A stretch of 5,035 nt of DNA, taken from NCBI GenBank assembly GCA_007131745.1, contig SLPX01000188.1, positions 1 through 5,035 on the forward strand. The letters run 5' to 3'. Numbering within the stretch: position 1 is the first letter of the stretch; every line of letters starts with the position of its first letter. This DNA comes from Myxococcales bacterium (GTDB lineage: Bacteria > Myxococcota > Polyangia > HGW-17 > SLPX01). The notes beneath the pieces were generated by a model. The model searched no databases. It saw nothing but the letters and a program-made list of their open reading frames with translations, and had not been told where the DNA came from. Positions 1,922-4,355 of this stretch are shown here, piece after piece. The position numbers were made by a program, and so were the translations under genes.

Positions 1922-4129
1922 ATGAGCAATAACGGCAAATGCCCGGTGACGGGAAGAGGACATGATCATCCCGCGGCAAAGGGAACATCCAACCGTGACT
2001 GGTGGCCCAACCAGCTTAACCTGTCCATTCTTCATCAGCACGCGCGTTCATCCAACCCGATGGATGCTGATTTCAACTATGCAGAAGAATTCAAAAAGCT
2101 GGATTTTGCGGCTCTGAAAAAGGATTTGTACGCTTTGATGACCGATTCAAAGGAGTGGTGGCCGGCCGACTGGGGGCACTACGGCGGCTTGATGATCCGC
2201 ATGGCCTGGCACAGCGCGGGCACCTACCGCACCGCGGACGGGCGGGGCGGCGGCTCCACCGGAAACCAGCGTTTCGCGCCGGTCAATAGCTGGCCCGATA
2301 ACATCAACCTGGACAAGGCGCGGCGGCTGCTTTGGCCCGTAAAGAAAAAGTACGGCAACAAGATCTCGTGGGCCGACCTGATGATCCTTGCCGGAAACTG
2401 CGCACTGGAATCAATGGGGTTCAAAACTTTCGGGTTCGGCGGCGGCCGGGTCGACATCTGGCAGCCGGAGGAGGACATATATTGGGGATCCGAAGCGGAA
2501 TGGCTCGGCGACAAGCGATACAGCGGTGACCGCGAGCTGGAAAACCCCTTGGCCGCGGTTCAGATGGGATTGATCTATGTTAATCCCGAAGGTCCCAATG
2601 GCAATCCGGATCCGGTTGCGTCGGGCCGCGACGTGCGGGAAACCTTTGGCCGCATGGGCATGAACGACGAGGAAACCGTGGCCCTGGTCGCCGGCGGCCA
2701 CACCTTCGGTAAGTGTCATGGCGCGGGCGACCCGAAAGCGGTTGGCCCGGAACCCGAGGCCGCTCCCATAGAAGAACAGGGTCTTGGTTGGAAGAGCAGC
2801 TTTGGAAGCGGGAAAGGCGGCGACACCATAAGCAGCGGCATCGAGGGCGCCTGGAAGCCGAACCCGACAAAATGGGACATGGGCTACTTGAACACTTTGT
2901 TCAAATACGAGTGGGAACTCGTAAAGAGCCCCGCAGGCGCGAACCAATGGCTGGCCAAGGACGTGGCTGAAGAGGACATGGTGGTGGACGCTCACGATCC
3001 TTCGAAAAAGCGCCGGCCCATGATGACCACGGCCGACCTGTCGCTCCGTTTCGACCCGATATACGAACCCATATCGCGGCGTTTTCAGAAAGATCCTGAT
3101 GCATTCGCAGATGCATTTGCCCGAGCCTGGTACAAGCTGACTCACCGCGACATGGGGCCCAAAAGCCGTTACCTGGGTCCTGAAGTTCCCGAAGAAGACT
3201 TGATCTGGCAGGATCCGGTTCCCGCGGTGGATCATCCCTTGGTGGACGAAAAGGACATAGCGGATCTCAAGGCCAAGGTTTTGGCCTCAGGCCTGTCGGT
3301 TGCGGAAATGGTCTCGACAGCCTGGGCCTCGGCTTCGACCTTTCGTGGTTCTGACATGCGCGGCGGGGCCAACGGAGCGCGCATTCGGCTGGAGCCGCAA
3401 AAGAACTGGGAAGTAAACGAACCTGAGAAACTGTCCAAGGTTCTGGATGTGCTGGAAAAAATCCGGAAGGATTTCAACAGCGCCCAGACGGGCTCGAAGA
3501 GGATCTCCATGGCTGACCTTATTGTGCTTGCAGGCTCAGCCGCGGTTGAAGCTGCAGCCAAGGCCGGCGGGCAACCTGTGGAAGTGGTCTTTACGCCCGG
3601 ACGTACGGACGCTTCGCAAGACATGACGGACGTGGAATCATTCTCGCTTCTGGAACCCGAGGCCGACGGTTTTCGCAACTATCAGAAGAAAGCCTTTACG
3701 GTGTCGGCCGAAGAAATGCTGGTGGACAGGGCGCAGCTCCTGACCTTGAGTGCACCCGAGATGACCGTGCTCATAGGCGGGTTGCGCGTGCTGGGCGCGA
3801 ATGTCGGAGGGTCGCAGCATGGTGTGTTTACGAAACGGACCGGGACTTTGACGAATGACTTTTTCGTCAACCTTCTGGACATGGACACGGTGTGGAAACC
3901 CGCGTCCGATGCGAGGGACAAGTTTACAGGTCATGATCGAAAGACAGGGGAGCCCAAGTGGACGGGTACGCGAGTGGACCTTGTTTTCGGTTCCAACTCC
4001 CGGTTGCGCGCGCTGGCCGAGGTTTATGCGCAAGACGATGCAAAGGAAAAGTTCGTACGCGACTTCATCGGAGCGTGGAACAAGGTCATGAACCTCGACC
4101 GCTTCGACTTGGGGCTGACTCAAAAATAA
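1922..4129 (+). CDS. katG: Catalase-peroxidase KatG, with C-terminus altered by an inserted element
   Basis: This 735-residue protein is a heme b catalase-peroxidase that breaks down hydrogen peroxide to water and oxygen and also has peroxidase activity. It has no signal peptide and is presumably cytoplasmic. All residues checked against Mycobacterium tuberculosis KatG are present: distal Arg93, Trp96 and His97 in [10 protein letters not shown]; Asp126; the Met-Tyr-Trp crosslink residues Trp96, Tyr219 and Met245; proximal His260 in [10 protein letters not shown]; Trp311; proximal Asp372 in TADLSLR; the switch Arg409 in THRDMGP; and Ser305, equivalent to Ser315. The N-terminal heme domain (to about residue 430) is followed by the family's non-heme C-terminal domain, so the enzyme should be active. 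Oddity: after the normal family ending NLDRFDL the protein reads GLTQK and stops. The last four codons and the stop come from the left terminal repeat of an inserted element (4113-4350). Without it the protein would be 731 residues ending RFDLV. Confidence 0.98.
4108..4112. repeat. Left copy of 5-bp target site duplication (CTTGG)
   Basis: CTTGG directly abuts the left terminal repeat and is repeated exactly at 4351-4355. Because the next base pair (G4112/C4351) is also complementary, the boundary could be shifted one base each way, giving an 18-bp terminal repeat and a 3-bp TTG duplication. Both readings give the same empty site. Confidence 0.75.
4113..4129 (+). repeat. Left terminal inverted repeat, also coding the katG end
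   Basis: GGCTGACTCAAAAATAA pairs with 4334-4350 at 16 of 17 positions. Read in the katG frame it completes a Gly codon, then encodes Leu-Thr-Gln-Lys and the TAA stop, which falls at its last three bases. Confidence 0.85.
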
Positions 4130-4208
4130 CTCCCGGATTTGTACGCCGATCCATCCCGCCCTGCTGCGTTGCTCGTCGGTTGACTCCTTTCCCTCCACAC
4201 CAACTCCT

Positions 4209-4259
4209 CCGTCGGTCCGACTGTAAAGCTCCAGCAAACTGGACCTTTACAGTAGACGG
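4209..4259. repeat. Long imperfect hairpin inside the element
   Basis: A 15-bp stem (4220-4234 with 4239-4253, one mismatch) closes a CAAA loop. Below an internal loop, a second perfect 5-bp helix CCGTC/GACGG (4209-4213 with 4255-4259) continues it. No T tract follows on either strand, so it is not a canonical intrinsic terminator. In the katG transcript it would form a stable 3' structure and might protect RNA or slow polymerase. This role is inference. Confidence 0.8.
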
Positions 4260-4262
4260 CCT

Positions 4263-4280
4263 GAATACGTCAATGTATTC
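4263..4280. repeat. Small perfect hairpin in the element (GAATAC/GTATTC)
   Basis: GAATAC at 4263-4268 and GTATTC at 4275-4280 are perfect inverted repeats around GTCAAT. It sits immediately after the long hairpin and before the G+C-rich right arm, so the element has a multi-hairpin layout typical of small non-autonomous elements. Confidence 0.6.
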
Positions 4281-4333
4281 GCCCTCCTCGCGCCTTGCCG
4301 GGCGGGTGCCTCGACGCCCTCGGTCCTGGGATC

Positions 4334-4350
4334 TTATTCTTGAGTCAGCC
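4334..4350 (-). repeat. Right terminal inverted repeat
   Basis: TTATTCTTGAGTCAGCC is the reverse complement of the left terminal repeat with one mismatch. The similarity continues weakly inward as TCCC and GGA blocks with small gaps. Confidence 0.85.
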
Positions 4351-4355
4351 CTTGG
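4351..4355. repeat. Right copy of 5-bp target site duplication (CTTGG)
   Basis: This is an exact copy of 4108-4112. The bases just after it, TTTGA, join the left copy to give GAC TTG GTT TGA, the inferred original end of katG. Confidence 0.75.

Follow-up and report, generated by a model that had tools for sequence, protein, structure and literature searches.

A MITE-like element at the 3' end of a katG gene and its modular relatives

THE katG LOCUS

The window analysed in this study is a stretch of 5,035 nucleotides from the genome assembly of a Myxococcales bacterium (contig SLPX01000188.1). It carries, in this order, a gene for a cysteine-rich repeat protein (MXAN_6577-like according to NCBIfam), a pirin gene, katG and an open reading frame (ORF) that converges on katG. 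At the left edge, positions 1-359 form a tandem array of 2.8 copies of a 129-bp unit with 83% matches; the array codes for the cysteine-rich repeats of the MXAN_6577-like protein and is truncated where the window begins. Our analysis concerns the 3' end of katG and the sequence up to its convergent neighbour, the features of which are listed in Table 1.

Table 1. Positions of katG, the MITE-like element and adjoining features in the window
Feature	Position	Strand	Remarks
katG	1922..4129	+	735 aa; final five residues (GLTQK) stem from the junction and the element
Left direct repeat CTTGG (target duplication)	4108..4112	+	
MITE-like element	4113..4350		238 bp, near-palindromic end to end; basis: terminal repeats, fold and ORF relatives elsewhere
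Left terminal inverted repeat	4113..4129	+	17 bp; contains TAA (4127-4129), the present katG stop
81-bp hairpin block	4182..4262		In window copy; absent from 157-bp class (P0121, P0123); inner hairpin arms 4220-4234/4239-4253
Right terminal inverted repeat	4334..4350	-	17 bp; complementary at 16/17
Right direct repeat CTTGG	4351..4355	+	
TTTGA, leftover of the former katG end past the element	4356..4360	+	Last two bases of a Val codon, then TGA stop (4358-4360)
Convergent ORF	4370..5005	-	At least 211 aa; stop 4370-4372, with 9 bp between it and the former katG stop; Pfam and NCBIfam without a match at E <= 0.001

INVERTED ENDS AND ABUTTING DIRECT REPEATS

The initial annotation of this DNA had described a 238-bp element with 17-bp terminal inverted repeats that match at 16 of 17 positions, flanked by exact copies of CTTGG. 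Both the coordinates and the matches were reproduced. The two CTTGG copies are identical and directly abut the element, and if the arms are extended by one base to pair 4112-4129 with 4334-4351, 17 of 18 positions are complementary, compared with 16 of 17 for the arms as tabulated. When an arm pair is defined as two 17-nt arms with at most one mismatch and a span of 60-1500, positions 4113-4350 constitute the only stretch in the window that combines such arms with abutting 5-bp direct repeats. Among 200 dinucleotide shuffles of the window, an arm pair occurred in seven, and an arm pair together with abutting 5-bp repeats occurred in none; a chance palindrome was rejected on this basis. The observation on positions 4113-4350 is thereby confirmed. 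The whole element also folds upon itself more strongly than its shuffled counterparts, with z scores of -5.96 for plus-strand DNA, -7.83 for plus-strand RNA and -8.75 for minus-strand RNA.

The boundaries can also be drawn in another way, since G and C runs adjoin each other where the element ends: the same bases accommodate a length of 239 bp and a 4-bp repeat (either TTGG with 4113-4351 or CTTG with 4112-4350). The window copy can therefore be read as a 5-bp duplication around symmetrical ends, or as a 4-bp duplication around an element that has one extra base at one end.

These features fit a miniature inverted-repeat element of the MITE kind. The length of 238 bp, with a longest frame of 79 codons, falls within the size range of such elements (about 100-400 bp, with no room for a transposase; PMC5896051), and the terminal inverted repeats are accompanied by a flanking CTTGG duplication. 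Moreover, the ends recur in differing flanks, as described below for two copies that have both ends and two that have one end, all of which are seen on other contigs as translated ORFs.

THE katG TERMINUS WITH AND WITHOUT THE ELEMENT

The KatG frame now terminates in RFDLGLTQK, and its stop codon resides inside the left terminal repeat. If the flanks are joined without the element, the protein end reads NLDRFDLV-stop. For comparison with other KatG proteins, the 8,000 candidates sharing the most words were scored, and 120 sequences, the window protein included, were listed. A stop exactly three residues past the motif LDRF (LDCF in one case), as in the element-free reading, is found in 99 of these 120 sequences. 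The remaining listed proteins end one (n = 1), two (1), four (3), five (10), six (1) or seven (4) residues past the motif, and one sequence has lost the motif through a D-to-G change, yet ends at the same position. Two of the four seven-residue ends belong to the window protein and to a close relative, P0002, and these are also the only two listed KatG sequences that have a GLTQK tail. Alignments of the window protein with solved chains in the PDB and with the KatG models of NCBIfam stop at residue 730, the L of RFDL, immediately before GLTQK. The initial annotation had regarded GLTQK as atypical of KatG and had proposed that removal of the element plus one CTTGG restores a normal terminus, and both statements hold up in this comparison.

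A relative whose katG ends in RFDLV, with no insert, had been named there as a supporting result. This exact terminus is present in 15 of the 120 listed KatG sequences, which were compared as proteins, and the relatives in which an element-free end is seen are 87% identical to the window protein or less among the matches listed. The closest KatG from a named organism among these matches is that of Desulfonatronum (Thermodesulfobacteriota), at 85-86% identity. Judged from this one gene, the host of the element probably belongs to the same phylum.

P0002 differs from the window KatG by a single residue (K494R), carries the same tail, and is encoded on a separate contig of 11.9 kb. A fault in a single assembly at the junction is unlikely, because P0002 exhibits the same junction on another contig, although both contigs may still derive from one sample.

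ADDITIONAL MEMBERS OF THE ELEMENT FAMILY

The minus-strand frame of the element, which spans 79 codons, was searched against 5.8 billion proteins. Of the five candidates returned, four scored, and each of these is a short unnamed ORF on another contig (P0121-P0124, E values from 7.6e-14 to 3.6e-6) that is known as a translation only. P0121 and P0123 cover the element from end to end (ADS at the first codon, FESA at the last), a total of 52 codons, with unrelated neighbouring residues on both sides. When the 27-codon block of the window copy is left out, their identity to the window element is 47/52 codons for P0121 and 44/52 for P0123. In P0122 and P0124, the first 22 residues match at 20 and 21 positions, respectively, and are followed by other middle blocks. 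Judged by eye, the segment FRPSSVKDPFNGALHSDRRR in P0122 resembles FRPSTVKVQFAGALQSDRRR of the window block, and it is located behind another block that is partly common to P0124 (VTNPVCW). A protein search with the opposite frame (61 aa) yielded no candidate.

As read from these translations, the element family appears to comprise a 157-bp class that lacks the central block, and longer forms that carry one or more middle blocks. The proposal that the ends in the window are those of a mobile family is thus borne out by two other ORFs that hold the element with both of its ends between unrelated sequences, and by two more that include one end. The four short hypothetical proteins, as deposited in public collections, are translations of element copies.

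The codons at the element ends in P0121 and P0123 also bear on the length of the target duplication. Both sets permit a 4-bp direct repeat and neither permits one of 5 bp; for P0121, 4 bp is attainable only if the first base of its element differs from G, and otherwise the limit is 3 bp. Random sets of residues taken from KatG proteins served for comparison, and 101 of the 5000 allow a repeat of at least 4 bp. This codon fit speaks for true target duplications in the P0121 and P0123 copies, and suggests that 4 bp may be the rule for the family. The 5-bp duplication put forward in the initial annotation accordingly agrees with the exact CTTGG repeats of the window copy, but it does not extend to P0121 and P0123, whose codons allow at most 4 bp.

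The recurrence of the element on other contigs is equally relevant to the possibility that it is a fixed intergenic structure, such as a palindromic terminator or an mRNA-stabilising stem, and that the KatG tail simply evolved to be longer. Such a structure would be at home between convergent genes, where this strongly folding sequence indeed sits, and P0002 shares the tail. However, direct repeats abut the ends exactly, and the same sequence with the same ends is present in unrelated flanks elsewhere. Furthermore, positions 3950-4500 contain no stem of the terminator type that is accompanied by a T run (mean of 0.7 in shuffles), and derivation from a terminator was rejected accordingly. Taken with these observations, a fixed structure is a very unlikely explanation.

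SEARCHES FOR FURTHER COPIES AND FOR A TRANSPOSASE

Nucleotide and protein searches of several collections were made for additional copies. Among plasmids, there was no match at E <= 1e-5; the 16 records at E <= 10 cover at most 17% of the element, and tblastn returned none. Phages gave no match by blastn or tblastn. Eight scans of viral contigs were conducted, of which six produced no exact match and two, both protein scans, produced 19 and 132 stretches with the peptide pattern, none of which was confirmed. The window has no match in Rfam at E <= 1. In 398 evenly drawn Pseudomonadota genomes no copy was found; three of these genomes contain a short match (22-41 bp), and all three were judged to be non-copies after the surrounding sequence was read. 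A separate observation in Pseudomonadota is a palindromic repeat (L009, about 1501-1535) that adjoins an apparent ribosomal-protein gene, and whose arms are, by eye, similar in style to the inner arms of the window element.

A pattern demanding both ends, which required 11-bp tips free of mismatches and a total length of about 238 bp, was applied to a collection of 84,980 genomes. It recovered six stretches (four in Exiguobacterium, one in Clostridium and one in an alphaproteobacterial metagenome-assembled genome), the interiors of which are unlike that of the window element. This pattern would miss the 157-bp class, and its lack of hits in Thermodesulfobacteriota is therefore weak evidence. 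The Exiguobacterium stretches (L001, L002, L004, L006) are inverted-repeat elements of 237-239 bp and that of Clostridium rhizosphaerae (L005) measures 241 bp; they resemble the window element in overall size and have the same tip of 13-14 bp, GGCTGACTCAAAA(A), although tip and size were both demanded by the pattern that found them. Exact copies of the 13-bp tip number 5 to 16 per genome in Exiguobacterium (four genomes) and two in Clostridium. Beyond the tips, the interiors exhibit no BLAST similarity to the window element, and a common family is thus not established.

No mobilising insertion sequence with the ends of the window element was seen in these searches, which covered Thermodesulfobacteriota by the both-ends pattern scan only. 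Transposases of the Pfam family DDE_Tnp_1_6 (PF13751), whose elements we take to be IS1182-type insertion sequences, are encoded in three of the five Exiguobacterium and Clostridium genomes. The ends of two such elements (L010 and L011, one copy in each of two Exiguobacterium genomes) were examined; they share GGCTG near the tip with the window element, and otherwise differ (GAGGCTGGGACATAACT). Three other stretches with tips in these genomes were read. The first, positions 233-2163 of L014 (Exiguobacterium antarcticum, the genome of L002), has two tips 1.9 kb apart and holds an apparent IS3-type pair of transposase ORFs, which seems to have inserted into one copy of the Exiguobacterium element, as judged from the translation and not by a family search. 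The second has tips that are 3.2 kb apart and, from its translation, encloses ordinary genes. The third has a single tip. None of these results points to a transposase for the window element.

The near-palindromic interior of the element, with its several hairpins, could alternatively indicate a REP/BIME-type palindromic repeat outside genes, which would be spread by a RAYT-type protein instead of by a transposase that acts on terminal repeats. The Pseudomonadota repeat mentioned above, similar in palindromic style by eye, would be compatible with such an origin. REP units are not known to leave abutting target duplications. Instead of palindromic units of 20-40 bp, the size given for REP units in PMC3733652, the window presents a 238-bp unit with 17-bp inverted ends and direct repeats. 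An origin as a REP/BIME repeat is therefore extremely improbable.

READING FRAMES THROUGH THE ELEMENT

Frames +1 and -1 of the element are open across all 79 codons. Translation of the terminal repeats from either end meets a stop within five codons in two frames (G-stop and LTQK/E-stop), and the third frame stays open. Two of the three frames stop early, and therefore an insertion near the end of a gene is quickly closed off in those frames. In addition, the lengths of the element plus its duplication, 238+5 and 157+5 (or 239+4 and 158+4), are multiples of three.

Rickettsia palindromic elements settle inside genes. The element described here might likewise have been selected to reside within genes, given that both size classes add multiples of three bases, that two frames stop soon after either end while the third is open, that frames +1 and -1 can be read throughout, and that four database ORFs enter or traverse the element. 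Other results argue against this reading. Open frames are common in shuffled sequences, with at least one in 800 and at least two in 124 of 2000 shuffles, and the palindrome makes two of the frames non-independent. The search that yielded the four ORFs used the open frame itself as its query, and these ORFs may be artefacts of gene prediction. In katG, moreover, translation ends inside the element and does not pass through it. We consider selection for residence inside genes to be quite unlikely.

PROPOSED ORIGIN OF THE PRESENT katG END

The combined observations indicate that a non-autonomous element of the MITE kind very probably inserted near the last katG codon, just after RFDL, and duplicated a short target. 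Because the element cannot encode a transposase of its own, we infer that one encoded elsewhere would have acted in trans on the 17-bp inverted ends, cutting the element out and joining it to the target. The left end would then have supplied the next in-frame stop, the TAA in CTCAAAAATAA, such that KatG keeps residues 1-730 and GLTQK replaces a single residue. The former katG stop would have been left stranded on the far side of the element, where it adjoins the stop of the convergent gene. The inserted copy would belong to a family in which a 157-bp form occurs beside longer ones, with the differences lying in the middle blocks. KatG with the GLTQK tail is expected to retain its normal function, since the stretch that matches other KatG proteins ends before the tail begins.

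A more far-reaching proposal, which we regard as unlikely, is that the family is a modular palindromic one whose size classes are built from hairpin blocks in multiples of three bases, with an early stop in two frames and the third open. Elements of this design could settle in genes or at their ends with little harm, and occasionally donate protein sequence.

COMPARISON WITH KNOWN ELEMENTS

The nearest parallels by description are QMITE1 and QMITE2 of Coxiella burnetii, which are reported to be small and non-autonomous, to measure 150-400 bp and to have direct repeats, with large and small versions in the case of QMITE2 (PMC5896051). Some QMITE copies extend into functional genes at the 3' end and supply their C-terminal residues, and, according to the authors, all functional annotated genes that were hit carry the QMITE insertion at the 3' end (PMC5896051). 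The window element resembles the QMITEs in being small and non-autonomous, in its direct repeats and size versions, and in its position at a gene 3' end to which it donates C-terminal residues. It differs from them in host lineage and in the length of the direct repeats, which measure 2-3 nt for QMITE1 and 7-11 nt for QMITE2 versus 4 or 5 here. Insertion at the 3' end of a gene is thus a kind of event already known for MITEs in Coxiella, encountered here in another lineage. No description of the window element was found in the literature searched; ISfinder and most subscription papers were outside the scope of this search, and a name for the element may exist.

IMPLICATIONS

The event at katG is ordinary though well resolved, and the modular element family is the more interesting by-product. 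The locus offers a clean and readable case in which a small mobile element rewrites the terminus of a gene for stress defence and apparently does not break it. The analysis also defines the ends and the modular layout of an element family that was not found in print in the literature searched. Finally, it carries a warning for the interpretation of sequence databases, where some short hypothetical proteins, such as P0121-P0124, are pieces of mobile elements.
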